From: Solirubrobacterales bacterium
GTDB taxonomy: Bacteria; Actinomycetota; Thermoleophilia; Solirubrobacterales; Solirubrobacteraceae
Assembly: GCA_025964175.1 (NCBI GenBank)
Contig: JAOPZL010000184.1
Location: forward strand, 1 to 41,692
Length of the DNA stretch: 41,692 nucleotides
Direction of reading: 5' to 3'
Below are positions 19,372-41,646 of the stretch, one piece after another (the first letter of the stretch is position 1; each line of letters starts with the position of its first letter). The position numbers and the translations under genes are program-made. The notes under the pieces were generated by a model, which worked only from the letters and a program-made list of their open reading frames with translations, had not been told where the DNA came from and did no database searches.

Positions 19372-19374
19372 ACC

Positions 19375-21681: not shown

Positions 21682-21697
21682 GGCGGGAGCCGCTGCG

Positions 21698-25252: not shown

Positions 25253-25300
25253 CCGCGTTCGACGTGGTGAATTGCCGGATTACGGGCCAATGCTTCGGCC

Positions 25301-25357
25301 TTGACACCCCGAGTTTGAACGATCTAGAGTTGAAATAGGCAATGTCTTTTCCTATTT
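25301..25357 (+). promoter_or_regulatory. Promoter plus palindrome spanning the start codon of the ROK kinase-like gene
   Basis: TTGACA (25301-25306), 17-nt spacer, CTAGAG (25324-25329); AAATAGG (25333-25339) ... CCTATTT (25351-25357) flanks the ATG at 25342. Confidence 0.55.
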
Positions 25358-26304
25358 ACGACGGACGACGCGACCACGTCGTTGGCATCGACCTCGGCGG
25401 CTCCTACGTGCGGGCACTGCTCTGCGACCTCGAGGGCCGCGAGGTCACCGGCGCCGTCGAGGCGACGCCGGCGGGCGACGCGGCCGCCGTCGTGGCGGGG
25501 ATGGCCCGGCTGGCCCGGGAGGTGGCCGCGCGCGCCGGCGTCGCCTGGGAGCGCGTCGCCGGGGTGGCCGTCGGCGTCCCCGGCGTGGCCGACCCCGGCG
25601 ACGGCAGGCTCCGCCACGCGCCCAACCTGCCGGCCTTCGGCGATCGCGACGTGGCCCTGGCGCTCGGCGAGCAGCTCAACGTCCCGGTCGCCGTGGACAA
25701 CGACGTCAACATGGCCACCCGGGCCGAACACCGCCGCGGCCACGGGGACGGCGTCGACGACTTCGTCTTCATCGCCATCGGCACCGGGATCGGCATGGGG
25801 ATCGTCACGGGCGGCCGTCTCCAGCGCGGTGCCACCGGAGCCGCCGGCGAGATCGGCACGCTCCCCGTCGGCGCCGACCCCTTCGACCAGGCCAACCACG
25901 TGCGCGGCTCCCTCGAGGAGGCGGCGGCGGGCAACGGCCTGGCCCGCCGCTACGCGAGCCGCACCGGCGCGTCCGCCGTCGACGAGGGCTTCGACCTGTT
26001 CGCCGCGGCGGCCGCCCACGACCCCCACGCCGAGGCGGTCGTCGCGGAGCAGGCCCGGGCGCTCGCGCTCGCCGTCGTCGCCGTGCACAGCGTCCTCGAT
26101 CCCGCGCTCGTCGTGTTCGGCGGCGGGATCGGCAGCCGTGACGACGTGCTCGCGCGCGTGCGCGAGAACCTGCCCGAGCTGACCAGCCGCTCCATCCACG
26201 TCGCCACCAGCGCGCTCGGTGAGCGTGCCGGCCTGATCGGCGCGGCCGAGCTCGCCGCCGAGCTGGCGCTCAACGCCGCGGACGCCGTCGGAGGCGGATG
26301 GTGA
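25342..26304 (+). CDS. ROK family protein without HTH (sugar-kinase-like)
   Basis: VVGIDLGGSYVRALLCDLEG, VAVGVPGVADPGDGRLRHAPNLP, VDNDVNMATRAEHRRGHG, IAIGTGIGMGIVTGGRLQRGATGAAGEIGTLPVGADPF. Confidence 0.85.
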   Translation: MSFPIYDGRRDHVVGIDLGGSYVRALLCDLEGREVTGAVEATPAGDAAAVVAGMARLAREVAARAGVAWERVAGVAVGVPGVADPGDGRLRHAPNLPAFGDRDVALALGEQLNVPVAVDNDVNMATRAEHRRGHGDGVDDFVFIAIGTGIGMGIVTGGRLQRGATGAAGEIGTLPVGADPFDQANHVRGSLEEAAAGNGLARRYASRTGASAVDEGFDLFAAAAAHDPHAEAVVAEQARALALAVVAVHSVLDPALVVFGGGIGSRDDVLARVRENLPELTSRSIHVATSALGERAGLIGAAELAAELALNAADAVGGGW

Positions 26305-27575
26305 TGCTCGACCGCGAGCAGCGCGATCGCCTCCTGGGCGCGGTCGACGCCGCGCACGCCACCGCGCTGCTGCAGCGCGCGGTCGCCGTGCCCAGCGTCA
26401 CCGGCGACGAGCTCGCCTTCGCTGCACTGGTCGCCGCCGAGCTGCGAGCCGCCGGCGCGGACGAGGTCGAGCTCGCCCAGCCGCAGCCGGGGCGGCCGAT
26501 CGTCTGGTCGCGCACCCGCGGCACCGGAGGCGGGCCCACGCTGCTGCTGGTGGGTCACCTCGACACGGTGCGCGTGAGCGGCTGGGCGGAGCGCTGGGCG
26601 GGCGAGGAGCGCGAGGATCCGTTCGCCGGGGCGGTCGTGGACGGAGCGGTCTGGGGCCGGGGCAGCGCCGACCTCAAGGGCGGGATCGCCGCCGTCCTGT
26701 GCGCGCTGCGCACGGTCCGCGACGCCGGCGTGGCCCTGCGCGGCGACGTGATCACCGCCTGGGTCTGCGACGAGGAGAGCGGCGAGCCGGGCCTCGGCCG
26801 GTCGATCGGCATGCAGGCGCTCGTGGACGCGATCGAGGCCGGGATCGTGCCGCGCGCCGACTTCGCCGTGTACGTCGAGCCGACGCGCCTGGAGGTCCTG
26901 CCCGCCCAGATCGGCTTCCTCATCGCCGACGTCGTGCTGGAGGGGCGCACCGCCTACTTCGCCCGTCCGCAGGAGGGCGTCGACGCCCTGCGCGCGGCGC
27001 ACCGCGTGCTGGAGGAGCTGTGGCACCACGGCGCGCAGCTCGCCAGAGGCGCCGCCGACCCGCTGCTGGGCCGCTCGGCGCTGCTCGTCACCGACCTCTC
27101 GGCCGGCGGCCTGATCGCCGTTCCCGGCTCCGCCCGCCTCAGCCTGATCCGCACGCTCCTGCCCGGCGAGGCGCTGGAGGACGCGGCGCAGCAGATCCGG
27201 GCCGCCGTGGCCCGTGGGGTCGCCGACAGCGAGGTGCGCGCCCAGGTCGACTTCCCCGCCGGGCGCGACCACCCGCTCGGCGGCCTCCCCTTCCGGACGC
27301 CGTCCGACCATCCCGCCGTCTCGCTGCTGTGCGAGAGCGTGCGGACCGTCGCCCCGGGGCGCGGCACGGTCGGCGGGGCCACCTTCTGGTCGGAGCTGTC
27401 GTTCCTCGAGCAGCACGGGATCCCCGGGGCGTACTTCGGCCCGGGAGACATCGCGACGGCGCACACCGCGCAGGAGCACGTCGAGATCCACGAGCTGGTC
27501 GATGCCGTCAAGGCGCTGTCGCTGTTCATCGCCGGCCACTGCGGGGCTGGCACCATCCAAGGAGTGCACCCATGA
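26298..27575 (+). CDS. M20 family metallopeptidase/deacylase
   Basis: LLLVGHLDTVRVSG, VWGRGSADLKGGIAAVLCAL, VCDEESGEPGLG. Confidence 0.88.
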   Translation: MVMLDREQRDRLLGAVDAAHATALLQRAVAVPSVTGDELAFAALVAAELRAAGADEVELAQPQPGRPIVWSRTRGTGGGPTLLLVGHLDTVRVSGWAERWAGEEREDPFAGAVVDGAVWGRGSADLKGGIAAVLCALRTVRDAGVALRGDVITAWVCDEESGEPGLGRSIGMQALVDAIEAGIVPRADFAVYVEPTRLEVLPAQIGFLIADVVLEGRTAYFARPQEGVDALRAAHRVLEELWHHGAQLARGAADPLLGRSALLVTDLSAGGLIAVPGSARLSLIRTLLPGEALEDAAQQIRAAVARGVADSEVRAQVDFPAGRDHPLGGLPFRTPSDHPAVSLLCESVRTVAPGRGTVGGATFWSELSFLEQHGIPGAYFGPGDIATAHTAQEHVEIHELVDAVKALSLFIAGHCGAGTIQGVHP

Positions 27576-28729
27576 AGGCACCTCGTCGGGCGATGGCGCT
27601 GCTTGCCGCCGCCCTCTCAACCGCCGGTCTCGCCGCCTGTGGCGGCGGATCCTCGAGCGACACGAGCTCGAGCCCCGCGGCGTCCACGCCGACGACCGCG
27701 GCGAGCACCACCCCCGCCTCGTCGAAGACCGTCGGCGCAACCGTCGGCCCCAACGGCGAGAAGGCGACGCCGATCAGCGCGCTGACCCTCACGCCGGCGC
27801 AGATCGACAAGGTCAAGGCCGGGAACTACACCAGCGCGCTGGTCTGGCACCAGTCCTCGGACTTCGTGACCGCCGTCTCCAACGGCGCCCGCGACGAGTT
27901 CGCCCAGCTCGGCATCAAGGTCGTGGCCGAGACCAACGCGAACTTCGACGCGGGCAAGCAGAAGAGCGACATCGAGACGGTGCTGGCCAAGAAGCCGAGC
28001 GTCCTGCTCAGCCTCCCCGTCGACCCGACGGCGACCGCCTCGGCCTACCGCGACGCCAACAAGGCCGGCACGAAGCTCGTGCTGCTCTCCAACGTCCCGA
28101 CCGGCTTCGTCGCCGGCAAGGACTACGTCGCGGTCGTCACCGACGACCTGTTCCAGATGGGCAAGCACGCCGCTGACGCCCTCGCGCAGTCCATCGGCGG
28201 CAAGGGCGACATCGCCTACCTGTTCCACGACGCCAAGTACTACGTCACCAACCAGCGCGACCAGGCGTTCAAGCAGACGATCGAGTCCAACTACCCGAAC
28301 ATCCACATCGTCGCCGAGAAGGGCATCGCCGATCCCGCCAAGGCCGAGGACCAGGCCAACGCGATCCTGATCAAGAACCCCAACCTCGCCGGCATCTACG
28401 TCACCTTCGCCCAGCCGCCGGCCGAGGGCGTGCTCAGCGCGCTGCGCAACAACACGAACACGACCACGAAGCTCGTCTCGCTGGACCTCGACGAGCCGCT
28501 GGCCGTGGACATGGCCCGCGGGGGCAACACCGCCGCGCTGGTCGCCGACGAGGCCTACGCGCTGGGGCAGTCGATGGCGAAGGCGGCGGCGTACGGGCTG
28601 CTGGGCCAGAAGGCCCCGCCGTTCATCGTCGCGCCGGCGGTCACGGTGACCAAGGCCAACCTCGCCCAGGGCTACATGCAGTCCCTGCACCAGCAGCCGC
28701 CCAAGGCCGTCCTGGACGCGATGAAGTAG
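27572..28729 (+). CDS. Sugar-type ABC transporter substrate-binding lipoprotein
   Basis: Signal peptide with lipobox (LSTAGLAACGGG), Ser/Thr/Pro linker, periplasmic-binding fold (FVTAVSNGARDEFAQLGIKVVAETNANFDAGKQKSDIETVLAKKPSVLLSLPVDPTA). Confidence 0.92.
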   Translation: MKAPRRAMALLAAALSTAGLAACGGGSSSDTSSSPAASTPTTAASTTPASSKTVGATVGPNGEKATPISALTLTPAQIDKVKAGNYTSALVWHQSSDFVTAVSNGARDEFAQLGIKVVAETNANFDAGKQKSDIETVLAKKPSVLLSLPVDPTATASAYRDANKAGTKLVLLSNVPTGFVAGKDYVAVVTDDLFQMGKHAADALAQSIGGKGDIAYLFHDAKYYVTNQRDQAFKQTIESNYPNIHIVAEKGIADPAKAEDQANAILIKNPNLAGIYVTFAQPPAEGVLSALRNNTNTTTKLVSLDLDEPLAVDMARGGNTAALVADEAYALGQSMAKAAAYGLLGQKAPPFIVAPAVTVTKANLAQGYMQSLHQQPPKAVLDAMK

Positions 28730-28733
28730 CTCG

Positions 28734-29744
28734 ATGGCGCTGCACGAGCCCAGCACCGACACGTCTCCCGCCACCGGGAGCGACCCCTCGGGGTCGCTCC
28801 TGGCGCGGATGCGGCGGATCGATCCCCGCAGCTATGTCGTGTACCTGGCGTTCCTGCTGATCCTCGCGTTCTTCGCGGTGACGCTCCAGGACGACGGCTT
28901 CCTCACATCGACGAACCTGCTGAACATCGTCAAGCAGACGGCGCCGGTGAGCGTCATGGCGGTCGGGCTGGTGTTCGTGCTCAGCGCCGGGGAGATCGAC
29001 CTCTCGATCGGATCGGTGGTCGCGCTGGCGGCGCTCGTCGCGGCGATCGTGCTGCGCGATCACGGGCTCGTGCTCGGCGTCCTGGCGGGCCTCGGCTGCG
29101 GCGTCGGGGTCGGGGTCCTGAACGGCTTCTTCACCACGGCGCTGCGGCTCCCGTCGTTCCTGGTCACGCTGGCCACGATGGGACTGGTCGCGGGCATCGC
29201 GCGCTGGACCACGGACCTGGAGGCGGTCGCGGTCACCAACCAGACCTTCGTGAACGTGTTCGGGTCGGGCAAGGTCGGGCCGGTCCCGGTGCTCGTCCTG
29301 TGGACGCTCGGGGTCGTCCTCGTCGGCCACTTCGTCTTCCGCCACACGCGCTTCGGCGCGCACGTGCTCGCCATCGGCGACAACGCGTCCGCCGCGCGCG
29401 TCACCGGCATCCACGTCGACCGGGTGCGCCTCGCCGTGCTCGTGATCAGCGCCTCGGCGGCCGCGCTGGGCGGGCTCCTCTACGCGGGCCGCGTCCAGGG
29501 CGCGACCTACACCCTGGGCACCTCGGACCTGCTGATCGCGATCGCCGCGGTCGTCATCGGCGGCACGCGCCTGTTCGGGGGCAGCGGCAGCGTCGTCGGC
29601 GCGCTCGTCGGCAGCCTGATCATGGGGATGCTGACCAACGGCCTGATCCTCATGGGTCTGGACAGCAACCAGCAGATGGTCGCCCAGGGCGCCCTGCTGC
29701 TGCTGGCCATCTCCCTGACCCTTCGCGAACCGAGAGGACGCTGA
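28734..29744 (+). CDS. ABC transporter permease (RbsC-like)
   Basis: VSVMAVGLVFVLSAGEIDLSIGSVVALAALVAAIVL, LPSFLVTLATMGLVAGIA, GGTRLFGGSGSVVGALVGSLIMGMLTNGLILMG. Confidence 0.94.
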   Translation: MALHEPSTDTSPATGSDPSGSLLARMRRIDPRSYVVYLAFLLILAFFAVTLQDDGFLTSTNLLNIVKQTAPVSVMAVGLVFVLSAGEIDLSIGSVVALAALVAAIVLRDHGLVLGVLAGLGCGVGVGVLNGFFTTALRLPSFLVTLATMGLVAGIARWTTDLEAVAVTNQTFVNVFGSGKVGPVPVLVLWTLGVVLVGHFVFRHTRFGAHVLAIGDNASAARVTGIHVDRVRLAVLVISASAAALGGLLYAGRVQGATYTLGTSDLLIAIAAVVIGGTRLFGGSGSVVGALVGSLIMGMLTNGLILMGLDSNQQMVAQGALLLLAISLTLREPRGR

Positions 29745-29747
29745 CCG

Positions 29748-30944
29748 ATGTTCCTGGACGTGCTGCGCCGGCGCAACCCGGCCTTCCTGCAGGCCGTCAT
29801 CACGCTGCACCGCGCCGGCCGGCTGCCCGCCAACGCCTACGCGCTGGACCTCGACGCGGTGCGCGACAACGCCCGTGCCCTGCGGGAAGCCGGTGACCGG
29901 CACGGGCTGGAGGTGCTGGCGATGACGAAGCAGGTCGGGCGGGCGCCCGGCTTCCTCGCCGCCGTGCGCGAGGGTGGGATCGAGGCGGGCGTGGCCGTCG
30001 ACATGACCGATGCCCGCGCGCTGGCGGCGGGCGGCCTGCGCGTCGGCCACGTCGGTCACCTCGTGCAGGTGCCGCGCGCCGAGGCCGCCGCCGCTGCCGC
30101 GCTGCAACCGGGCAACTGGACCGTCTTCAGCGACGACAAGGCCGTCGAGGCGGCGACCGCCTCGCGCGACCTCGGGCGCGAGCAGGACCTGCTGGCCCGC
30201 ATCCACGCGCCGGGCGATCGCTTCTACCCCGGCCACGAGGGCGGGTTCGCGGCCGCCGACGTCGTGCAGGTCGCCGAGCGGATGGATGCCCTGGAGGGCG
30301 CGCGCTTCGCCGGCGTCACCACCTTCCCGGCGCTGCTGTTCGATGCCGCGAGCGCCACCGTCAAGCCGACGCCCAACGCGCAGACGCTGGCGCGTGCGGT
30401 GGCGGCCCTGCGCGCCGCCGGCCGCGACGAGGTCCGCGTCAACGCGCCCGGCACCACGTCCGTCGAGGTCTTCCCGCTGCTCGCGCAGCTGGGCGCCACG
30501 CAGGTCGAGCCGGGGCACGGGCTGACGGGGACGACGCCGCCGCACGCCCTGCGCGACCTCCCCGAGCGGCCGGCCGCCTGCTACGTCACCGAGGTCTCCC
30601 ATCACCACGGGGACCGCGCCTTCGTCTTCGGCGGTGGGCTGTACATCGACCCGGTGTTCGGCGACTACCGGCTGCGCGCGCTCGTGGCGCGCGACGAGGC
30701 GCTGGAGGACGCGCACCTGCTGGACGCGACGATCCCGCCGCCCGAGGCGATCGACTACTACGGCCAGCTGGATCCCGGCGACCGGCCCCTGCCGCCGACG
30801 GGCGCGACCGCGGTGTTCGGCTTCCGCATCCAGGCGTTCGTCACGCGCGCGTACGTCGCGGGGATCGCGGGCGTCGCCGACGGGACGCCGCGGGTGGCGG
30901 GCATCTGGACGAGCGACGGGCGGGAGGCGGCATGGCCTCAGTAG
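29748..30944 (+). CDS. YhfX-like PLP-dependent alanine-racemase-fold protein
   Basis: FLDVLRRRNPAFLQAVITLHRAGRLPANAYALDLDAVRDNARALREAGDRHGLEVLAMTKQVGRAPGFLAAV. Confidence 0.78.
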   Translation: MFLDVLRRRNPAFLQAVITLHRAGRLPANAYALDLDAVRDNARALREAGDRHGLEVLAMTKQVGRAPGFLAAVREGGIEAGVAVDMTDARALAAGGLRVGHVGHLVQVPRAEAAAAAALQPGNWTVFSDDKAVEAATASRDLGREQDLLARIHAPGDRFYPGHEGGFAAADVVQVAERMDALEGARFAGVTTFPALLFDAASATVKPTPNAQTLARAVAALRAAGRDEVRVNAPGTTSVEVFPLLAQLGATQVEPGHGLTGTTPPHALRDLPERPAACYVTEVSHHHGDRAFVFGGGLYIDPVFGDYRLRALVARDEALEDAHLLDATIPPPEAIDYYGQLDPGDRPLPPTGATAVFGFRIQAFVTRAYVAGIAGVADGTPRVAGIWTSDGREAAWPQ

Positions 30945-31684
30945 AGGCTCCGGCCGCGCCGCTGGTGCGCCTGGACCGGGTGCGCAAGGAGTTCGGGGCC
31001 GTGGTGGCCCTGCAGGAGGTGTCGCTGGAAGTCGGCGCGGGCGAGATCGTCGCCCTCGTGGGCGACAACGGCGCGGGCAAGTCGACGCTGGTCAAGATGA
31101 TCGCCGGCGTCCACCAGCCGACCAGCGGCGAGATCGTCCTCGACGGCAAGCCGGTGCGGCTGGCCAACCCCAACGACTCGCGTCGCCAGGGGATCGAGGT
31201 CGTCTTCCAGGACCTGGCCCTGGCCGACAACCAGCCCGTCTACATGAACATGTTCCTCGGCCGCGAGCTCGTGCGCGGCCCGCTGCGCCGCCTCGATCGC
31301 GCCCGCATGGCCACCGAGACGCAGCAGCTGCTCGACGACCTGGACGTCCGCATCCCCAGCCCGCGCGCGACGATCCGCGACCTCTCCGGCGGCCAGCGCC
31401 AGGGCGTGGCCATCGGCCGCGCGACGCACTGGGCGCAGCGCCTGGTGCTGATGGACGAGCCGACCGCCGCGCTCGGCGTGCAGGAGACGGCGCGCGTGGA
31501 GGAGATCATCCTGCGCATGCGCGACCGCGGCCGCGCGATCCTCATCGTCAGCCACAGCCTGGACCAGGTCTTCCGCATCTCCGATCGCATCTGCGTCCTG
31601 CGCCGGGGCGCGCAGGTCGGCGTGCGCGAGACGGCCGGCACCAGCGGCGACGAGATCGTCGCCCTGATCACCGGCCTGCGATGA
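30932..31684 (+). CDS. Sugar-type ABC transporter ATP-binding protein (single ATPase domain)
   Basis: ALVGDNGAGKSTLVKMIAG (Walker A), LSGGQRQGVAIGRA, LVLMDEPTAALG. Confidence 0.95.
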   Translation: MASVEAPAAPLVRLDRVRKEFGAVVALQEVSLEVGAGEIVALVGDNGAGKSTLVKMIAGVHQPTSGEIVLDGKPVRLANPNDSRRQGIEVVFQDLALADNQPVYMNMFLGRELVRGPLRRLDRARMATETQQLLDDLDVRIPSPRATIRDLSGGQRQGVAIGRATHWAQRLVLMDEPTAALGVQETARVEEIILRMRDRGRAILIVSHSLDQVFRISDRICVLRRGAQVGVRETAGTSGDEIVALITGLR

Positions 31685-32027: not shown

Positions 32028-32846
32028 ATGTCCAGGAGCTCCGAGGCGCGCCGGCCGACCGGCGTCTACATCAGCCAGGTCGCCCGCATGCTCGGGGTGT
32101 CGGCCTCGGTGCTGCGCACGTGGGAGAACGAGGGCCTGGTGTCGCCGACGCGGACCGAGTCCGGCTATCGCGTCTTCTCGCCGACCGACGTCGAGCGGGT
32201 GCGCCGGATCCGTGACCTGATCCAGGAGGGCCTCAACCCCGCGGGTGTGCGCCGCCTGCTGGAGGAGGAAGGGGACGACGGCGAGGCGCCCTCGCGCGGT
32301 CCGCGCCCCCATGTCCACGATCGCATCCAGATGCTGCGCAAGCGCAAGGGGCTGTCGCTGCGGACGCTGGCGGCGATGTCGGACCTCAGCCCCTCGTCGG
32401 TCAGCGCGATCGAGCGCGGCCTCAGCGCGCCGTCGGTGGGCACGCTGCAGCGCCTGGCCGCCGCGCTGGACACGACCGTCCCGCAGCTGCTCGACACGCC
32501 CCGGCCACAGCGCCAGCTGGTCGTGCGCCCGCACGAGCGCCAGGTGCTGGACATGGAGACGCCCGGCGTCACCTTCGAGAACCTCTACTCGACCGACACG
32601 ATCCTGCAGTCGATCCTCATCAGCGTCGAGCCCGGCGAGGGCAGCCACGAGTCCTACAGCCACGAGGGCGAGGAGTTCCTCTTTGTGCTCGAGGGGCAGT
32701 TGGAGCTCACGCTCGACGAGATCTACACCTACCGGCTCGGCGCGCGCGACGCGATGACCTTCGCCAGCCCGCGTCCGCACCGTTGGTGGAACCCCGGCGA
32801 CGTGCGCACCGTGCTCGTCTGGGTCAACACCCCGCCGACCTTCTGA
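32028..32846 (+). CDS. Triple-domain regulator: MerR HTH + XRE HTH + cupin
   Basis: YISQVARMLGVSASVLRTWENEGLVSPTRTESGYRVFSPTDVERVRRI; RIQMLRKRKGLSLRTLAAMSDLSPSSVSAIERGLSAPSVGTLQRLAAAL; SHEGEEFLFVLEGQLELTLDEIYTYRLGARDAMTFASPRPHRWWNPG. Confidence 0.92.
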   Translation: MSRSSEARRPTGVYISQVARMLGVSASVLRTWENEGLVSPTRTESGYRVFSPTDVERVRRIRDLIQEGLNPAGVRRLLEEEGDDGEAPSRGPRPHVHDRIQMLRKRKGLSLRTLAAMSDLSPSSVSAIERGLSAPSVGTLQRLAAALDTTVPQLLDTPRPQRQLVVRPHERQVLDMETPGVTFENLYSTDTILQSILISVEPGEGSHESYSHEGEEFLFVLEGQLELTLDEIYTYRLGARDAMTFASPRPHRWWNPGDVRTVLVWVNTPPTF

Positions 32847-32851
32847 CGCCC

Positions 32852-32865
32852 CGCGGCGCGCCGCG
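32852..32865 (+). terminator. GC palindrome after the regulator gene, possible terminator
   Basis: CGCGGCGCGCCGCG, 14-bp perfect palindrome 5 nt after the stop codon; no T-tract. Confidence 0.35.
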
Positions 32866-33063
32866 CCGTCCGGCAGCCTGACGATCTGCCGCCCTCGGGA
32901 CGCACGACTTCCGGACCGCGTCTCCGCGGCCCTCGTGGGCCGGCTTCTGCGTTGTCGTGTTGGCGCAACCTTACCGAACGTGGTAAAGCTTGCAGCATGG
33001 GCTCCACGGTCGGCCACCGGCCGCCGTCGGAGGGCAACGCGAGCAGCGAGGGGCTGATCTGGA

Positions 33064-34032
33064 GTGGGAACGGCGAGCAGCGCGCAGGACGCGCAACGGG
33101 CGATGCAGGAGCTCTACGACGCGTACAACCGCCACGATCCAGGGCGGGTCGCGGCGCTCTACGCGGCGCAGGGGACCCATGAGGACGTGGCCCAGTCGCG
33201 GGTGGGCAGCGGCCCTGAAGCGGTGCGCGCGGGGCTGGAGCACTTCCTCGCCGCGTTCCCCGACGCGCGCTGGGAGCCCGAGCGCATCGTCGGCGAGGGG
33301 TCTCGCGCCACGGCGGCGTACCGCCTGACCGGCACCCTGCGCGGGCCGCTGGGACCGTTCCGCCCGGAGGGCCAGCGGCTCGACCTGCGCGGCGTCCACG
33401 TCCTCCAGACGGCGGGCGACGGACGCATCGAGCGCACCGTCGACTACTGGGACGGCGCGACGTTCGCGCGGCAGATGGCCGGCCGGTCGTCGGCGCCCGG
33501 GGCGGAGGATCCGCTGCCGGCCGGGGAGATCCCGAGCGCGGCGCCCGAGGGCTTCCGGCGCGCGATGCGTCTGCTGGCCGGTGGCGTGGCGGTCGTGACG
33601 ACGATCGTCGATGGCCGTCCGTGGGGGCTGACGGTCAGCGCCTGCTGCTCGCTCACCGCCGACCCGCCGCAGGTTCTGGTCTCGCTGGACTCGCGCACCG
33701 CGAGCTGTCGCGCGATCGTCGACCGCGGCGGCTTCGGCGTGGCGTTGCTGGGCTCAGACCAGGTCGACGTCGCGCGCGTCTGCTCGGCCAGCGGCCGTCC
33801 GAAGTTCGTCGAGGAGCTGGTCGACCCGGAGTTCGTCTCGGCGCAGTCGCCGGTGATCGCCGGGGCGCTGGCGCAGCTGGACTGCCGCCTCGTCGACTCC
33901 CACCGGGTCGGCGACCACCTACTCCTCGTCGGGCTGGTCCGCGAGGTCCTCAGCCCGCGCACCCACGAGGAGCTGGCGCCGCTCGTGTACTACGAGCGCG
34001 AATTCCGCACCGTCGGCGCCGCGCTCGGGTAG
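33064..34032 (+). CDS. SnoaL-like domain fused to flavin reductase-like (split-barrel FMN-binding) domain
   Basis: N-term ELYDAYNRHDPGRVAALYAAQGTHED...VDYWDGATFARQM; C-term FRRAMRLLAGGVAVVTTIVDGRPWGLTVSACCSLTADPPQVLVSLDSRTASCRAI. GTG start is the ORF-track choice. Confidence 0.85.
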   Translation: MGTASSAQDAQRAMQELYDAYNRHDPGRVAALYAAQGTHEDVAQSRVGSGPEAVRAGLEHFLAAFPDARWEPERIVGEGSRATAAYRLTGTLRGPLGPFRPEGQRLDLRGVHVLQTAGDGRIERTVDYWDGATFARQMAGRSSAPGAEDPLPAGEIPSAAPEGFRRAMRLLAGGVAVVTTIVDGRPWGLTVSACCSLTADPPQVLVSLDSRTASCRAIVDRGGFGVALLGSDQVDVARVCSASGRPKFVEELVDPEFVSAQSPVIAGALAQLDCRLVDSHRVGDHLLLVGLVREVLSPRTHEELAPLVYYEREFRTVGAALG

Positions 34033-34065
34033 GTCTCGCCCGGTGTGCGGCAAGCTTCTCGGAGC

Positions 34066-34111
34066 TTGACAACCTTCATCGGGCTTCTGTACGTTCACAA
34101 CGTTGCCGAAC
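34066..34111 (+). promoter_or_regulatory. Promoter of the cyclase-led operon with candidate operator
   Basis: TTGACA (34066-34071), 18-nt spacer, TACGTT (34090-34095), overlapped by ACGTTcacAACGT and CAACGTTGCCGAAC. Confidence 0.5.
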
Positions 34112-34141
34112 AGCCGTCGGCAGAGGAAAGAGGGGGGACAC

Positions 34142-34972
34142 GTGTCGACGACACGCATGTCGATTGAGGAAGGCCAGCAGCAGGCCAAGCAGGTCGGAGC
34201 GACTCCGGGACCGGGCCAGGCGCCCGTCAACGGGGCCGACCTCCTGCGCCGCCCAGGACGGGTCGTGGATCTCACGCGCCCGATCTACGAGGGCATGCCG
34301 ATGTGGTTCGGCCACCAGAAGACGTACATCTCGGTCAACCAGGACCACGAGGGCTTCAAGAAGCTCTGGGGCACCGACAGCGGCTTCTACGCCCGCCACC
34401 TGACGATCAGCGAGCACGCGGGCACCCACACCGACTCGATCGTCGAGTACGACCCCGACGGCCCGTCGCTGAGCGACATGCCGCTCGAGTTCTACTACGG
34501 CTCCGCGGTCTGCATCGACCTCTCCGAGGCCCAGTTCCAGGACCCCGACCCCGAGGGCCGCGGCTACGCGACCGAGGAGGTCGTCCGCCGCGCCGAGGAG
34601 AAGCTCGCCGCGGCCGGTGAGGCGATCCGCCCCGGCGACATCGTCCTCGCCTGGTTCGACTACGGCGACCGCCACTTCCCCGGCAAGAAGTTCATCACCG
34701 AGTGCCCGGGCTTCAGCTTCGACGGCGCCGAGTACCTGGCCCAGAAGGGCGTCGTGAACATCGGCACCGACTGCGTCGGCATCGACAACATGCTCGACGA
34801 CCAGTTCTCCGGCCACCAGGTCTGCAAGAAGTACGGGATCGTCAACACCGAGAACCTCGCCAACCTGGGCGAGCTGGTGAACAAGCGCTTCCAGTTCTTC
34901 GGGCTGCCGCTGAACATCGACGGGGGCACCGGCTCCCCGATCCGCGCCATCGCGTGGTTCCCGGAGGGCTGA
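34142..34972 (+). CDS. Cyclase family protein (kynurenine formamidase-like metal hydrolase)
   Basis: RVVDLTRPIYEGMPMWFGH and the HxGTHxD motif in ISEHAGTHTDSIVEYDPDG; GTG start with strong SD. Confidence 0.88.
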   Translation: MSTTRMSIEEGQQQAKQVGATPGPGQAPVNGADLLRRPGRVVDLTRPIYEGMPMWFGHQKTYISVNQDHEGFKKLWGTDSGFYARHLTISEHAGTHTDSIVEYDPDGPSLSDMPLEFYYGSAVCIDLSEAQFQDPDPEGRGYATEEVVRRAEEKLAAAGEAIRPGDIVLAWFDYGDRHFPGKKFITECPGFSFDGAEYLAQKGVVNIGTDCVGIDNMLDDQFSGHQVCKKYGIVNTENLANLGELVNKRFQFFGLPLNIDGGTGSPIRAIAWFPEG

Positions 34973-34977
34973 GCGAG

Positions 34978-35454
34978 ATGGCGCAGGAGAACGGGCACGC
35001 GGCCGTCGCGCCCCGGTCCCGCCGGCGCATCATGCCGGCGGGGCACTGGGACTGGCATGTCCCGACGCCCTTCTCGCAGGGGTGGCGTGTCGGCCCGATG
35101 GTGTTCGTGGGCGGTCAGCTGTCGCTGGACTCCAGCGGCGCGGTGATCGGCGAAGGCGACATCGAGCTGCAGACCCGCAACGTCTTCGAGAACGTGACGA
35201 CCGTCCTGCGGGACGCGGGCGCCACGTGGGAGGACGTGGTCAAGCTCAACACGTACTACGTCTTCGACGGGGATCCGGCGCAGGCCCAGGAGTACTGGAC
35301 GAAGATGACCAACGTCCGGATGGAGTTCCTGCCCGATCCCGGGCCGTGCGGCACCGGCGTCCGCGTCGACGGGCTGATGTACGACGGGCTGCTCATCGAG
35401 GTCGAGGCGATCGCCATGATCGACGAGGACCGAGCCCGGGAGAGCGCGGCGTGA
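34978..35454 (+). CDS. RidA/YjgF family protein (copy 1)
   Basis: PTPFSQGWRVGPMVFVGGQLSLDSSG, DIELQTRNVFENVTTVLRDAGATWEDVVKLNTYYV, LLIEVEAIAMI. Confidence 0.92.
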   Translation: MAQENGHAAVAPRSRRRIMPAGHWDWHVPTPFSQGWRVGPMVFVGGQLSLDSSGAVIGEGDIELQTRNVFENVTTVLRDAGATWEDVVKLNTYYVFDGDPAQAQEYWTKMTNVRMEFLPDPGPCGTGVRVDGLMYDGLLIEVEAIAMIDEDRARESAA

Positions 35455-36230
35455 GCCACGCGGTGCGCGTCGCCCGGGATCCCCGCGACCTTCCGGTCGT
35501 CGGACCGCGGGTGATCACGATCGGGAACTTCGACGGGGTCCATGTCGGGCACCGGTCGATCATCGACTCGATCGTGCAGCGCGGGATGACGAGCACCGTG
35601 GTGACCTTCGATCCGCATCCGCGGACGTACTTCGGCGGGCGGGTCTGCGAGATCACATCACTGGAGCGGCGGCTGGAGCTGCTGTCGGGCACGGGAATCG
35701 ACGAGGTGCTCGTGCTGCCCTTCGACGACGCCATGGCGGCGCTGGAGCCCGATCTCTGGATCCGGCGCTACCTGGAGCCGATCGACGCCCGCGTGGTCGT
35801 CGTCGGAGAGCGGTTCCGCTTCGGACGCGACCGGGCCGGCGACGCGGCGCTCCTGCGCCGCATGGGCCTCGAGGTGCGCGCCGTCCCGCTCGTGCCCGAG
35901 GTCTCGTCGACCCGGGTCCGCGAGCTCGTCGGTCAGGGCGATCTGCCGCGCGCCGCGCGGCTGCTCGGCCGCTGCCACGAGATCGAGGTCACCGTCGTCG
36001 ACGCCGAGGTCCGGCGTGACGCGACGACGTTGCGGCTGGAACCGGCCGTGCGCACGGCCGCGATGCCTCCCATCGGGAGGTACGCGGCTCGTGTCGACCG
36101 GCGTCCGGCCGTGATCGACCGGGTGTCCGATCACCCGGATCTACGTGCGCGGGTCCGCGCGTGGGACGGCGCCATCGGCGCCCGACTGCGCGTGGCGCTG
36201 AGCCGGTCGCTCGCGGCCGGCACGGCATAG
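35451..36230 (+). CDS. FAD synthetase (FMN adenylyltransferase domain, RibF-like) without recognisable riboflavin kinase motif
   Basis: ITIGNFDGVHVGHRSIIDSIV, TFDPHPRTYF, VGERFRFGRDRAG, SSTRVRELVGQGDL; no GFPTAN-type RFK motif downstream. Confidence 0.85.
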   Translation: MSHAVRVARDPRDLPVVGPRVITIGNFDGVHVGHRSIIDSIVQRGMTSTVVTFDPHPRTYFGGRVCEITSLERRLELLSGTGIDEVLVLPFDDAMAALEPDLWIRRYLEPIDARVVVVGERFRFGRDRAGDAALLRRMGLEVRAVPLVPEVSSTRVRELVGQGDLPRAARLLGRCHEIEVTVVDAEVRRDATTLRLEPAVRTAAMPPIGRYAARVDRRPAVIDRVSDHPDLRARVRAWDGAIGARLRVALSRSLAAGTA

Positions 36231-36358
36231 AAGACGACGGTCCCTGTCCCAAGGGGCTCGGAGGAGGAGTGCAGAACGGTGGTCCGCGGAGAGGCGGTCC
36301 ATCGGCCAGCCCTCGGCGAAAACGCCGGGGTCAGCGACGCATGGAGGGAGTGGGGACG

Positions 36359-37930
36359 ATGACGAGGGAAGACGACGGCTCGCGCGGCGGGCCGATGCAT
36401 CTGGACGAGCCGATGGGCCACGCGGGCCACCCCGAGGTGGTCGGCGACGGCGCGGCGATCGGCCGCGTGGAGAACCGCGGGATCGACTACATCCCCGAGG
36501 ACGAGCGTCATTCCAGCCCGGCCAACCTGTTCTGGGTCTGGCTGGGAACGCAGATGTGCTTCGGGATCATCGTGGCCGGGTGGCTGCCGATCGCCTTCGG
36601 CCTGGGCTGGTGGAGCGCCGTCAGCGCGATCACCGTCGGCCTGGCCATCGGCTGCCTGCTGTTCGCGCCGTTCTCGCTGCTGGGACCGCGCACCGGAACC
36701 AACAGCGCCGTCAGCTCCGGCGCGCACTTCGGGCTCGTCGGCCGGATGGTCGGCTCGCTGCAGGCGCTGTTCATCGCCATCGGCTTCGTGTCGCTGACGA
36801 TCTGGACGGGAGGCGACGCGATCGTCTCCGGCCTGGCCCGGCTGATCGGCACGCCGGACAACGACGGCATGCGGATCGTCGTGTACGGGCTGCTCGGGGC
36901 GACCGTCCTGGCCATCTCGATCTACGGCCACGCGATGGTGCTGGCCGCGCAGAAGTTCCTGGTCCCGACCGTCGGCATCATCCTGGTCGTCGGCTTCTTC
37001 GCCAAGCTCGGTGACTTCGACAGCGGCTACAAGGGCGGGGAGTACCTGCTCGGCAGCTTCTGGGCCACGTGGGCGCTGGCCGCGACGGTGGCGCTGTCGC
37101 TGCCGATCTCCTACAGCCCGTTCGCCAACGACTTCGCCCGCTACGTCTCGCGCAAGCGCTTCAGCAACACGACGGTGATGCTCGGAGCGGGCACCGGCAT
37201 GTTCGTCGGCTGCTGGCTGACGCTCGTCTTCGCCGCGTACATGTCGACGATGTTCACCGACGTCTCGACGCCGTTCGTCAGCGGGCTGGTCGGCATCTCG
37301 CCGAGCTGGTACGTCGTGCTCATCCTGCTCGTCGGCCTGTTCGGCAGCTTCGCCCAGGGCGCGCTCGGGCTGTACGGCACCGGGCTGGACACCTCGTCGC
37401 TCATCCCGCGCCTGGCGCGGGTGCCGGCGACGCTGACCGTCGGCGCGCTCGCCGTGGTCATCGTCTACGTCGGCGGCCTCGTGCTCAACGCGCAGGACAC
37501 CGTCTCGGCCTTCCTGCTGATCCTCAACGTGGTGTGCGCCCCGTGGATGCTCATCACGCTGCTCGGCTTCGCCTACTGCCGCGGGCGCTACTACCCCTAC
37601 GACCTGCAGCTCTTCAACATGGGTCGCAAGGGCGGGGCCTACTGGTACTGGCACGGCGTCAACGTGCGCGCGATGATCGCGTTCGTGCCGGCGGTCGTGA
37701 TCGGGCTGATGTTCTCGGCCACCTCGATCTTCACCGGGCCGTGGGCCAACGCCGCCAACGGCGTCGACCTCAGCTTCATCTCCTCGGCGGTCATCGCCGT
37801 CGTCATCTACGGCGCCGCGCTGATCGTGTCGCCCGAGCGCAACCACCCGTCGGCCGAGGCCGGCGAGGTCGTCATCACGCCACACCAGGAAGCCGCCGCG
37901 GCGGTCACCACCGTCGCCGCCGGCGACTGA
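36359..37930 (+). CDS. NCS1 / purine-cytosine permease family transporter
   Basis: About 12 hydrophobic segments; NLFWVWLGTQMCFGIIVAGWLPIAFGLGWWSAV, GPRTGTNSAVSSGAHFGLVGRMVGSLQAL, SPFANDFARYVSRK. Confidence 0.9.
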   Translation: MTREDDGSRGGPMHLDEPMGHAGHPEVVGDGAAIGRVENRGIDYIPEDERHSSPANLFWVWLGTQMCFGIIVAGWLPIAFGLGWWSAVSAITVGLAIGCLLFAPFSLLGPRTGTNSAVSSGAHFGLVGRMVGSLQALFIAIGFVSLTIWTGGDAIVSGLARLIGTPDNDGMRIVVYGLLGATVLAISIYGHAMVLAAQKFLVPTVGIILVVGFFAKLGDFDSGYKGGEYLLGSFWATWALAATVALSLPISYSPFANDFARYVSRKRFSNTTVMLGAGTGMFVGCWLTLVFAAYMSTMFTDVSTPFVSGLVGISPSWYVVLILLVGLFGSFAQGALGLYGTGLDTSSLIPRLARVPATLTVGALAVVIVYVGGLVLNAQDTVSAFLLILNVVCAPWMLITLLGFAYCRGRYYPYDLQLFNMGRKGGAYWYWHGVNVRAMIAFVPAVVIGLMFSATSIFTGPWANAANGVDLSFISSAVIAVVIYGAALIVSPERNHPSAEAGEVVITPHQEAAAAVTTVAAGD

Positions 37931-37947
37931 AAAGGAGCAAGTTCGCT

Positions 37948-39462
37948 ATGACCGATTCCACTGTCAAGTCACCCCCGTACGTCGACAAGGTCATCGAGGC
38001 GCTCGCCGACGGCGACGAGCCGCACCTGATGAACGGCGAGCAGTACCTCAAGAGCCTCGCCGACGGGCGCCGCGTCATCGCCGCCGACGGGACGGAGGTC
38101 GACGACGTCGCCTCCCACCCGGTCACGGGTCCCGCGGCGCAGACGTTCGCCAAGGTGATGGACCTGCAGTTCGACCCGAAGTGGCGGGACATCGTCACCT
38201 ACGCGGACCCGGTGACCGGCGCGCGCAAGTCGCGCGGCTGGCAGGTCCCGACCACCCGCGACGACCTGTACCGCAAGCGCGAGCAGATCGGCGCGACGAC
38301 GCGCACCACGCTCGGCATGTTCGGGCGCCCGCCCGACTACGGCCCGGCGATGTCGCTCGGCTTCATGGCCATCATCGACCGCGTCCAGGCCGAGAGCCCG
38401 GAGTTCGCGGACAACATCCGCAACTTCGTGCAGATGTCGGGCGAGCACAACCTGCTCTCCACGGACCTGATCGCCGACGCCCAGTCGGACCGCTCGGTGC
38501 CGCGCAACGACCGCCCGGCGACGCTGCGGGTGGTCGATGAGCGGCCCGACGGGATCGTGCTGCGCGGCAGCAAGATCGCCGGAAGCTCCGGATCGATCAC
38601 GCACTTCTTCACGCTGTCGACCACGCTGGGGGAGGGCCTGGGGCCCGACGCGGCGATCTGGGCGGCGATCCCGGTGAACCTGCCGGGCCTGTCGCTGCTG
38701 CTGCGTGAGCCGACGATCAACGGCCCCGTCTCCCGCGAGGACCATCCCCTCAACGCCGCCGGCGAGGAGATGGACCAGATGATCGTCTTCGACGACGTCT
38801 TCGTCCCGCGCGAGTACGTGTTCAGCCTGCGCAACCTCGACTTCCTGAAGCTGTACTTCGAGAGCTGCGTCTACGTGCTGTGGCACATCATGACCCGCCT
38901 GGCCTACCGCGCGGAGATCTTCGCCGGCACGGCACAGGTGATCACGGAGATCCTCGGCACCGACAAGGTCCCGGGCGTGCGCCGCGCGGTGGCCGAGATC
39001 ACGACGTACGCGCAGACGCTGCGCGCGTTCTCGATCGCCGCGATCGCCGACAGCCAGACCTGGAACGGCGTCGAGGTGCCCCACCCGGGGCTCGTCTCGG
39101 CCGGGCGACTGCACTCGATCACGAACTACAACCGCATCATGTACACGCTGCAGGACCTCTGCGGCCAGGGCCTCATCTCGCGCTGGCCGGAGAAGATCTG
39201 GGACCACCCGGAGTTCGGCCCCAAGCTCGACGCGTTCCTGCCCGGCCACGGCGTCACGGCGCGGGAGAAGAACCGCTTCTTCAGCTTCGTCTACGACCTC
39301 ACGGCGAGCGGAAACGCCCAGCGGCTGGGGCTGTTCGAGAACGTCAACGCGACGCCCCCCTCGTTCATCGCCGAGCTGGTCTACCAGCACGTCGACCGCT
39401 CCGAGACGGCCCAGTTCGTGCGCGAGTACGCGGGCATCGCGGACGCCGACCTCCCGTCGTGA
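37948..39462 (+). CDS. 4-hydroxyphenylacetate 3-monooxygenase (HpaB)-family flavin monooxygenase
   Basis: ALADGDEPHLMNGEQYLKSLADGRRVIAADG, LRVVDERPDGIVLRGSKIAGSSGSITHFF, DQMIVFDDVFVPREYVFSL; SD AAAGGAG. Confidence 0.9.
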   Translation: MTDSTVKSPPYVDKVIEALADGDEPHLMNGEQYLKSLADGRRVIAADGTEVDDVASHPVTGPAAQTFAKVMDLQFDPKWRDIVTYADPVTGARKSRGWQVPTTRDDLYRKREQIGATTRTTLGMFGRPPDYGPAMSLGFMAIIDRVQAESPEFADNIRNFVQMSGEHNLLSTDLIADAQSDRSVPRNDRPATLRVVDERPDGIVLRGSKIAGSSGSITHFFTLSTTLGEGLGPDAAIWAAIPVNLPGLSLLLREPTINGPVSREDHPLNAAGEEMDQMIVFDDVFVPREYVFSLRNLDFLKLYFESCVYVLWHIMTRLAYRAEIFAGTAQVITEILGTDKVPGVRRAVAEITTYAQTLRAFSIAAIADSQTWNGVEVPHPGLVSAGRLHSITNYNRIMYTLQDLCGQGLISRWPEKIWDHPEFGPKLDAFLPGHGVTAREKNRFFSFVYDLTASGNAQRLGLFENVNATPPSFIAELVYQHVDRSETAQFVREYAGIADADLPS

Positions 39463-39920
39463 CCTCCGCCGACATGACCCCCGCCTGGCCTGCGGCCAGG
39501 CGGATCATGCCCGCCGGCCACTGGGACTGGTCGATGCCGACGCCGTTCTCGCAGGGCTGGCAGTGCGGGCCGTTCATCTTCGTCGGAGGGCAGATCTCCG
39601 CCGACGAGCAGGGCAAGACGATCGGTCCCGGGGACATCGAGGTCCAGACCCGCAACGTGTTCGAGAACATCCGCTCGGTCCTGCGTGAGCAGGGCGCGGA
39701 GATGCGCCACGTCGTCAAGTTCAACACGTTCTACGTGTTCGAGGGGGAGGGCGACGACATCCGCGAGTACTGGGAGGCGATGACGCGCGTCCGGCTGGAG
39801 TTCTTCGACGAGCCGGGCCCGTCGGGCACGGCGGTCCGCTGCGTCGGGCTGGCCTACCCCGACCTGCTGATCGAGGTCGAGGCGATCGCCTACGTGCCCG
39901 AGCCGGCGGGCGGCGCGTGA
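39459..39920 (+). CDS. RidA/YjgF family protein (copy 2)
   Basis: RRIMPAGHWDWSMPTPFSQGWQCGPFIFVGGQISADEQG, DIEVQTRNVFENIRSVLREQGAEMRHVVKFNTFYVFEG; GTG overlaps the upstream TGA (ATG at 39474 is an alternative). Confidence 0.91.
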   Translation: MTSADMTPAWPAARRIMPAGHWDWSMPTPFSQGWQCGPFIFVGGQISADEQGKTIGPGDIEVQTRNVFENIRSVLREQGAEMRHVVKFNTFYVFEGEGDDIREYWEAMTRVRLEFFDEPGPSGTAVRCVGLAYPDLLIEVEAIAYVPEPAGGA

Positions 39921-41038
39921 GCGAGACGGTGGACCTGGCGGCCGCGCTCGTGCGCTGCGCGACCGCCTATCCGCCGGGGGACGAGCTGTGCGCGGCGGAG
40001 GTCGTCGCGCGCTTCCTCGACGTGCCCGGTGTGGAGGTCGAGCTCCAGCCGCTGGACGAGCGGCGCGCCAACCTGGTCGCCCGCCTGCGCGGCAGCGGGC
40101 AGCGACCGTCGCTGGTGTTCTGCGGCCACCTCGACACCGTGCCGGTCGGGCCCGGCGCCTGGAGCTCGGACGCTCTGGGCGGTGAGGTCCGCGACGGGCG
40201 GCTGTGGGGGCGCGGGTCGGCCGACATGAAGGGCGCGATCGCCGCGATGGCGGTCGCGCTGCGCGAGCTGGTGGCGAGCGGGCAGGTGCCGCAGGGCGAC
40301 GTCGTCCTGGCCCTCACCGCCGGCGAGGAGACCGACAGCTGCGGAGCGCGCCTGATGGCCGAGTCGGGGATCGTCGACGACGCCGGGATGATGGTCGTCG
40401 GCGAGATGACCGGCCTCGACGTCGGCTGCGCGCACAAGGGTCTGCTGTGGGTGCAGGTCGAGACGACCGGGCAGCGCGGCCACGGGTCGGTCGTGGGGCG
40501 CGAGGGCAACGCGATCGCGGCGCTGATGGCGTGGCTGCACCCGCTGGAGTCGCTGGACGCGCTCGTGTCCGGCGAGCACCTGCTGCTGGGCCGCGGCAGC
40601 GTCTCGGTCAACCAGATCGACGGCGGCGACGCGCCCAACGTCGTGCCCGGCGCCGCGCGCGCCGTGCTCGACGTCCGCACCCTGCCGGTCCACGACCACG
40701 CGGGGATCCTGCGGGCGCTGGGCGAGCGGGGCGACGCGGCGACGCTCTCGGTCCTGCGCGAGGGGGCGCCGGTCGCCACCGACCCCGGCCACCCGCTCGT
40801 GCGCGCCTGCGCCGACGCGGTCCGCGAGGAGCTCGGGCGGCCGGCGGTCGTCAAGGGGCTGCCGTACCTCACCGACGCGTCCGTCTTCGTGGAGGCGCTG
40901 GACATCCCCGTGGTCATCCTCGGACCGGGGCAGGAGGCCCAGGCCCACGGGGTCGACGAGTCGGTCGCGGTCGCGGCGCTGGAGCAGGCGACGCGGATCT
41001 ACCGCGCCATCGCGCAGCGCCTGCTCGAGCCCGTCTAG
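39917..41038 (+). CDS. M20 family ArgE/DapE-type deacylase
   Basis: LVFCGHLDTVPVGPGAWSSDALGGEVRDGRLWGRGSADMKGAIAAM, LALTAGEETDSCGARLM, NQIDGGDAPNVVPGAARAVLDVRTLP. Confidence 0.93.
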   Translation: MSETVDLAAALVRCATAYPPGDELCAAEVVARFLDVPGVEVELQPLDERRANLVARLRGSGQRPSLVFCGHLDTVPVGPGAWSSDALGGEVRDGRLWGRGSADMKGAIAAMAVALRELVASGQVPQGDVVLALTAGEETDSCGARLMAESGIVDDAGMMVVGEMTGLDVGCAHKGLLWVQVETTGQRGHGSVVGREGNAIAALMAWLHPLESLDALVSGEHLLLGRGSVSVNQIDGGDAPNVVPGAARAVLDVRTLPVHDHAGILRALGERGDAATLSVLREGAPVATDPGHPLVRACADAVREELGRPAVVKGLPYLTDASVFVEALDIPVVILGPGQEAQAHGVDESVAVAALEQATRIYRAIAQRLLEPV

Positions 41039-41646
41039 AGGACGATCGCGCGGCCGTCGGCGGTGGCGATCGCGGCGCGGCGCAGCACGGGCGCGCCGGC
41101 CGTCACCCGCACGCTCAGCGTCGTGGCCGAGCGGTCCAGCCACGCGTGCAGCCCGGACGCGTCGCCACCGACCTCGATCCAGGCGAAGCCGGCAGGGGAG
41201 ACGGCATGGTCGGCCGCCGCGGCGCCCGGGTCGGGCGTTTCCGCACGGCGGCCGATGAGGAACGGGGTGGCGGGGGTGGCGGCGGCCTGCTCCATGCCCG
41301 TGTGGTGGACGACGAGGCCGGCGCGCTCGAGGCGGTCGACGGCGGTGCCCAGGCGGGCCGCGTGTGCGGCGACGTCCTCGACGGCGACCGCCCAGCCCAT
41401 CAGCCGTTCGTCGCCGCCGGCCAGCGTCGCCAGCGCCCAGGCCCCGAACGTCGACGTCGCCGCCTCGGCGGGGTCGGCGACCGCGAGGAGCTCGAGGTAG
41501 CCGGTCCCCAGCGGGACGATGCGGTTGTGCGTGCCCAGCCCGACGTGGCGGCCTCCGGGCACGCCGGCGAGGCCGTGCTCCTCGCGCAGGCGCGCGGCGG
41601 TCCGGTCCAGGTCGGTGGTCGCCAGGATCACGTGGTCGATGCGCAT
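41035..41646 (-). CDS. VOC/glyoxalase-like domain protein
   Basis: MRIDHVILATTDLDRTAARLREEHGLAGVPGGRHVGLGTHNRIVPLGTGYLELLAVADP. Confidence 0.83.
   Translation of the reverse strand: MRIDHVILATTDLDRTAARLREEHGLAGVPGGRHVGLGTHNRIVPLGTGYLELLAVADPAEAATSTFGAWALATLAGGDERLMGWAVAVEDVAAHAARLGTAVDRLERAGLVVHHTGMEQAAATPATPFLIGRRAETPDPGAAAADHAVSPAGFAWIEVGGDASGLHAWLDRSATTLSVRVTAGAPVLRRAAIATADGRAIVL

Follow-up and report, generated by a model that had tools for sequence, protein, structure and literature searches.

A probable catabolic operon for a nitrogen heteroaromatic compound in a Solirubrobacterales bacterium, with a conserved lower module and an exchangeable entry enzyme

The stretch analysed here, called the window throughout, is the whole of contig JAOPZL010000184.1 (41,692 nucleotides, guanine + cytosine (GC) content 73%) from the 3.9-Mb draft genome of a Solirubrobacterales bacterium (GCA_025964175.1). 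Its positions 32028-41038 hold nine genes, which we read as probably forming a regulated operon for the catabolism of a small nitrogen (N) heteroaromatic compound. Genes were identified by Pfam domain search, with every domain far above its cut-off. All nine genes that an earlier note on this DNA had described are found where it placed them. The features are as follows.

32028-32846, + strand: dedicated regulator of 272 amino acids (aa) with MerR and XRE helix-turn-helix domains and a cupin domain (Pfam); homologues adjoin the module elsewhere
32967-32996, + strand: candidate operator/promoter element AACCTTACCGAACGTGGTAAAGCTTGCAGC, 5′ of the reductase gene; 25 of 30 bases match genome G239
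33064-34032, + strand: SnoaL-like domain fused to a flavin reductase (Flavin_Reduct), predicted to supply reduced flavin (Pfam)
34071-34076, + strand: second AACCTT half-site, 5′ of the cyclase gene (hexamer count in the window)
34142-34972, + strand: cyclase-family metal amidohydrolase (PF04199) of a distinct subfamily with the motif HxGTHxDxxxE (Pfam, alignment)
34978-35454, + strand: Rid1, a Rid-family protein without the RidA arginine (Pfam, alignment)
35451-36230, + strand: flavin adenine dinucleotide (FAD) synthetase with the flavin mononucleotide (FMN) adenylyltransferase domain (FAD_syn) only (Pfam)
36359-37930, + strand: NCS1-family permease (PF02133); the ATG at 36341 is a possible earlier start (Pfam)
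37948-39462, + strand: HpaB-family two-component flavin monooxygenase, HpaB_N and HpaB domains (Pfam)
39459-39920, + strand: Rid2, a Rid-family protein without the RidA arginine (Pfam, alignment)
39917-41038, + strand: M20-family amidohydrolase/deacylase (Pfam)
41035-41646, - strand: Glyoxalase_3 (VOC) protein, convergent, overlapping the end of the M20 gene and lying beyond the span first described (Pfam)

The genes had been called mostly co-oriented and overlapping; all nine lie on the + strand, and there are overlaps of 4 bp between Rid1 and the FAD synthetase, between HpaB and Rid2, and between Rid2 and M20. The intergenic gaps are of 5 bp (cyclase to Rid1), 17 bp (NCS1 to HpaB), 109 bp (reductase to cyclase) and 128 bp (FAD synthetase to NCS1). 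The unit also takes in the VOC gene on the opposite strand. On a plasmid of Arthrobacter sp. NicSoilE8 (AP024662) the gene NicSoilE8_40920 encodes a single 629-aa Glyoxalase_3-M20 fusion, to which the VOC protein of the window is 35% identical over 144 aa. Because this fusion adjoins HpaB, cyclase, Rid and regulator genes, the VOC protein is placed in the unit and may act in the same pathway.

Two of the components bear on flavin supply. No riboflavin kinase domain was found by Pfam in the FAD synthetase, and the presence of the FMN adenylyltransferase domain alone fits a supply of FAD to HpaB. Homologues of the synthetase occur in HpaB clusters of Thioclava (30%; percentages given for proteins are amino acid identities) and Peribacillus (34%). 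In clusters of Thioclava and Rhizobium the SnoaL-like protein and the flavin reductase are separate genes near an HpaB of 38-39% identity.

The earlier note had named a gene set not conserved together as a finding that would refute its proposal. In the synteny survey that we ran, the set recurs in other families and classes and on a plasmid. The full set is present in G239, a genome from the same class but a different family. One strand carries NCS1 (about 42-44%), M20 (34%), reductase (47%), Rid (73%) and cyclase (64%), together with a GntR regulator and a MerR-XRE-cupin regulator. On the divergent strand of the same contig are Rid, cyclase, HpaB (61%), a di-iron monooxygenase (Phenol_Hydrox twice, and MmoB) and a [2Fe-2S] ferredoxin, followed by a third cyclase, a NuoF-like fragment and a third Rid. 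The genes of this cluster (L025:4811-19069) have a third-position GC of 0.67-0.78, compared with 0.88-0.95 in the flanking genes, which suggests that the cluster was acquired recently; two other copies of the module are plasmid-borne.

The best plasmid-borne match to HpaB (65.6%, the next best being 44%) is that of the NicSoilE8 plasmid, where 14.5 kb contain the reductase (27%), HpaB (66%), cyclase (54%), Rid (69%), the VOC-M20 fusion and two copies of the MerR-XRE-cupin regulator. In the family of the window itself, G699 shows an HpaB fragment (44%) at a contig edge with Rid, cyclase and NCS1 (53-54%) in about 10.6 kb. Cyclase-Rid pairs occur in G198 and G276, and Rid with M20 (51%) in G249. 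Near the module, both G699 (L054:3867-5039) and Arthrobacter (L009:7177-8304) have alanine dehydrogenase genes, and the G699 locus also has a class III aminotransferase; these may give a clue to the end product.

The most constant association is that of the cyclase with Rid. A Rid gene lies within about 3 kb of the cyclase gene in 12 of 12 copies of the subfamily, and is immediately adjacent in 10. The cyclase subfamily is rare. Of 299 genomes of the class that were surveyed 4 have it, as do 3 of the 397 surveyed in the phylum, and all four class genomes that have it also have the Rid subfamily. HpaB is a poorer probe than either; used against the 397 genomes of the phylum it matched the window alone, and a scan of genome contigs with the HpaB alignment, limited to two short patterns, gave one irrelevant match (25%). 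Gene order does differ among the loci, as might be expected of a chance neighbourhood or of a biosynthetic rather than a catabolic cluster. The genes nevertheless recur with an importer and a regulator in several families, in two classes of the phylum and on a proteobacterial plasmid. This contradicts a chance grouping, and makes that pair of explanations taken together highly improbable.

The genomes G346 and G639, from another class, show what varies. Each has a single operon divergent from the regulator gene, beginning with soluble di-iron monooxygenase alpha, beta and MmoB genes, a thioredoxin-like [2Fe-2S] ferredoxin and a NuoF-like protein, and continuing with NCS1 (53% and 49%), cyclase (54%), Rid (66-68%) and M20 (30-31%). 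No HpaB was found in either operon. A plasmid of Paracoccus has Rid (64% to Rid1), M20 (37%), an adenine-deaminase-like enzyme, cyclase (51%) and the regulator, after which come sugar-type ATP-binding cassette (ABC) genes and ribokinase. Across the relatives the entry oxygenase is thus HpaB, a di-iron monooxygenase, both or none. From the comparison of gene content the constant part is the cyclase and Rid; M20 and the regulator are usually present too, and NCS1 often. In the unit a conserved lower module is joined to an entry enzyme that can be exchanged. The entry here comprises HpaB together with a reductase and an FAD synthetase of its own, and the lower module the NCS1 importer, the cyclase-family hydrolase, the arginine-less Rid, M20 and the MerR-XRE-cupin regulator.

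The soluble di-iron monooxygenase genes (L061:12434-17091 and L062:11863-16518, both - strand, and L025/L026) are paired with the thioredoxin-like [2Fe-2S] ferredoxin and the NuoF-like protein, which take the place of the single reductase usually present. Pyridines are substrates of the di-iron monooxygenases HpdABCDE and PmlABCDEF (PMC8313251). Between the Rid and M20 genes of G249 lie a NuoF-like gene and one for a Rieske oxygenase, and the Rieske enzyme is perhaps a third type of entry oxygenase.

The HpaB protein was aligned with HadA, for which the roles of the residues are described (PMC8342789). HadA R101, R233, D254, R439 and N447 correspond to R127, R253, D276, R459 and N467, while T193 is replaced by serine (S213). 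With its FADH- binding residues kept, the enzyme should work as a reduced-flavin monooxygenase of group D, in agreement with the family given in the earlier note. Its closest solved relatives are phenol, nitrophenol and chlorophenol hydroxylases, as would suit an ordinary HpaB that serves to break down a simple phenol or some other aromatic compound without nitrogen, but several observations make this quite improbable. The score against the 4-hydroxyphenylacetate monooxygenase model TIGR02309 is 223 bits, under the cut-off of 480; the phenol base His290 of HadA is Leu311; and the pocket residues Phe206, Arg208 and Phe286 of HadA differ. Loss of His290 counts against an enzyme of the dehalogenase/denitrase type and not against every phenol, because hydroxylating-only relatives are also without it (PMC8342789). 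The operon contains no aromatic ring-cleavage dioxygenase, and NCS1, cyclase, M20 and Rid proteins have no known role in phenol routes.

The cyclase has the PF04199 domain, with KynB and isatin hydrolase as solved relatives. The motif HxGTHxDxxxH of those enzymes is HxGTHxDxxxE in 12 of 12 members of the subfamily, and the score against the KynB model TIGR03035 (66.5 bits) is under the cut-off of 223. The permease matches PF02133 with 186 bits (cut-off 23.5), and is under the cut-off of the NCBI ncs1 subfamily model (64 against 353 bits). No match with a solved structure was found for it.

Both Rid proteins have glycine at the position of the arginine of RidA and RutC, and this position is Gly, Ala or Val in all 15 Rid copies (13 aligned and two read). 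Four positions beyond, an arginine within T-[AG]-[VI]-R is common to all members. The two proteins score 58-59 bits against the RidA-type model (cut-off 106) and 46-50 bits against that for RutC (cut-off 169). They had been described as RidA proteins; they belong to the Rid family but lack the residue that defines the RidA type. Rid proteins without the arginine are reported to have shown no imine/enamine deaminase activity (PMC4433059, PMC8113886), the R104A variant of RutC is inactive (PMC8113886), and the function of the arginine-less subfamilies Rid4-Rid7 has been called unknown (PMC4433059). Here an arginine-less Rid is linked with a single conserved catabolic operon, where a member of one cyclase subfamily is always close by, and its reaction could be found by giving it the product of the cyclase. 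A related Rid domain (47-48%) forms the C-terminal part of a 399-aa protein on Mesorhizobium plasmids (L030:13209-14408 and L031:2610-3809), in an ectoine-like neighbourhood with M24 peptidase, aspartoacylase-like and threonine dehydratase genes.

Homologues of the regulator adjoin the module in G239 (64%), Arthrobacter (48% and 45%), Paracoccus (46%) and G346 and G639 (42%). The element at 32967-32996 is identical at 25 of 30 positions to L025:11760-11789, an intergenic sequence before the Rid-cyclase-HpaB operon of G239; its score is 20, where the best of 300 shuffles gave 16. The hexamer AACCTT occurs twice in the window when both strands are counted (at 32967 and 34071), both times in promoter regions of the cluster; ahead of the operons of G346 and G639 four copies are clustered in about 72 bp. 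The full element was not found in the Paracoccus, G699, G198 and G276 loci. The shared element and the AACCTT sites together support a single putative regulon, the hexamer by itself being short.

Related loci carry genes for N-heterocycles: 2,5-dihydroxypyridine (DHP)-dioxygenase-like genes, amidases and tetramethylpyrazine-oxygenase-like genes. The nearest plasmid NCS1 (44%), from R. opacus 1CP, lies beside Rieske and tetramethylpyrazine-oxygenase-like genes. HpaB relatives of 37-39% identity adjoin DHP-dioxygenase-like genes, amidases, isochorismatase or Asp/Glu racemase; the genes annotated as leucyl aminopeptidase beside them are 41-52% identical to an annotated DHP dioxygenase or its homologues. 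The genome of the window has such a cluster on contig C194 (3001-23000), with an NCS1-like permease, flavin reductase, HpaB (34%), isochorismatase, DHP-dioxygenase-like and molybdenum hydroxylase genes. This is probably a pyridine pathway. It has the same upper trio of NCS1-like permease, reductase and HpaB with a different lower pathway, and also holds Asp/Glu-racemase-like genes.

The contig of the window is itself rich in N-ring hydrolases. An isochorismatase (6929-7570, - strand), 58% identical to that of C194, is located about 24 kb from the cluster, beside a D-hydantoinase/dihydropyrimidinase (543 bits, cut-off 393), the two genes together spanning 6929-9020 on the - strand, and hydantoinase A and B genes are followed by an AMP-binding ligase at 17233-23224 (+ strand). 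Between these and the cluster, 24029-31684 contains a ROK regulator, a ROK kinase, a second M20, a solute-binding protein, a sugar-type permease, a YhfX-like racemase and an ABC ATPase roughly as long as the N-terminal half of an RbsA-type ATPase. These ABC, M20 and ROK genes were considered as members of the unit and rejected, since no relative of the module has them in the same order, although the Paracoccus locus likewise has sugar-type ABC genes.

An N-ring catabolic pathway, as the earlier note proposed, is supported by the co-conservation of the genes and by this context. A plausible course begins with import of the ring compound by NCS1. HpaB, using FADH2 from the SnoaL-reductase, would hydroxylate a ring carbon to give a lactam or keto tautomer, and the ring amide would then be hydrolysed by the cyclase, in the manner of isatin hydrolase and kynurenine formamidase acting on their own substrates. 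Rid might accelerate a subsequent hydrolysis or tautomerization, by chemistry other than the Arg105-dependent deamination of enamines, and M20 would release an amino or acyl group. The regulator is expected to work on the AACCTT-containing promoters before the reductase and cyclase genes. The labels 'convergent' and 'ring-opening', attached to the pathway in the earlier note, we regard as inferences.

Several observations weigh against this scheme. The NCS1 of the NicSoilE8 plasmid is only distant (23-25%) and lies about 5.8 kb before the reductase. The closest HpaB (71%, in G032) adjoins a UbiD-type decarboxylase, with no cyclase or Rid in the 20 kb read around it, and no close characterized homologue indicates a substrate. 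The Paracoccus locus has the adenine-deaminase-like enzyme and neither an oxygenase nor NCS1, so oxidation is not obligatory. This last locus also suits a hydrolytic catabolism of purines, nucleobases or hydantoins, where the oxygenase is peripheral, the ring is opened by an amidohydrolase and the product is then processed by cyclase, M20 and Rid. Its adenine-deaminase-like enzyme scores 440 bits (cut-off 472.5), sugar-type ABC genes and ribokinase follow, and in the window the D-hydantoinase, isochorismatase and hydantoinase A/B genes are 10-25 kb from the cluster. Yet an oxygenase is present in all six loci that have NCS1 near a cyclase-Rid pair, and of the loci read at length Paracoccus alone has none, some others being contig fragments. 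Hydrolytic catabolism is thus unlikely, and an oxidative N-heteroaromatic operon remains the preferred reading.

Such an operon would have two implications. HpaB and a di-iron monooxygenase stand before the same importer, hydrolases and regulator, and these two unrelated oxygenases are predicted to give the same or closely related products. More tentatively, the route may be an undescribed one in which the lower module is plugged into different oxygenases, with the arginine-less Rid and the His-to-Glu cyclase subfamilies performing new reactions on the ring-opened product; this we consider possible, though somewhat short of an even chance. The NicSoilE8 plasmid provides the module in a named strain that is open to testing.

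Oxidative catabolism of N-heterocycles is already known. Neither a cyclase/arginine-less Rid/M20 lower module nor its coupling to interchangeable oxygenases was encountered in the literature searched, and no cluster combining RidA with cyclase, or NCS1 with HpaB, was found in the open-access part covered, pyrrole and imidazole included. The closest list of roles is that of the Rut system (Escherichia coli rutABCDEFG), with a flavin oxygenase, flavin reductase, Rid-family protein, amide hydrolase and nucleobase-type importer, and the earlier note had argued for the same logic. The parts themselves differ. RutA is luciferase-like whereas the oxygenase here is an HpaB of group D, and in place of the isochorismatase-type RutB there are the cyclase and M20. 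No RutB-type isochorismatase was found in 32028-41038, and that at 6929-7570 does not match the RutB model. The reductase is of the same Pfam family as RutF but scores 69 bits, under the RutF cut-off of 254.75, and RutG is an NCS2 transporter while the importer here is NCS1. RutC has the essential Arg104 that both Rid proteins lack, so the operon is not a Rut remake. The oxygenase is not fixed either, since relatives exchange it for a di-iron enzyme or have none. The analogy with Rut is one of the parts list only and fails where tested, and a functional equivalent for uracil or thymine with each step taken by another family is very improbable.

The kpi cluster for 4-hydroxypyridine in Arthrobacter sp. 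IN13 similarly starts with a flavin monooxygenase followed by hydrolases, and a permease of the cytosine/purine/uracil/thiamine/allantoin (NCS1) family is proposed for uptake (PMC7356986). It differs in that KpiA is a single-component PF01494 enzyme, KpiB an alpha/beta hydrolase and KpiC an amidohydrolase-family dioxygenase, and its gene table shows no cyclase, Rid or M20 (PMC7356986). The indole clusters exemplified by Providencia rettgeri GS share a two-component flavin oxygenase and a cyclase-family hydrolase acting after oxidation of an N-heterocycle ring, but the oxygenase is of the styrene-monooxygenase type and not HpaB, and Rid, M20 and NCS1 are unmentioned in the parts of that account consulted (PMC9871250). 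Lastly, the nic-like 2,5-dihydroxypyridine clusters of Rhizobium, Thioclava, Peribacillus and C194 have HpaB relatives (34-39%) and flavin reductase, in some cases with SnoaL, FAD synthetase or an NCS1-like permease; they differ in the lower pathway, which is based upon DHP-dioxygenase-like enzymes with amidases or isochorismatase and not upon cyclase, Rid and M20.

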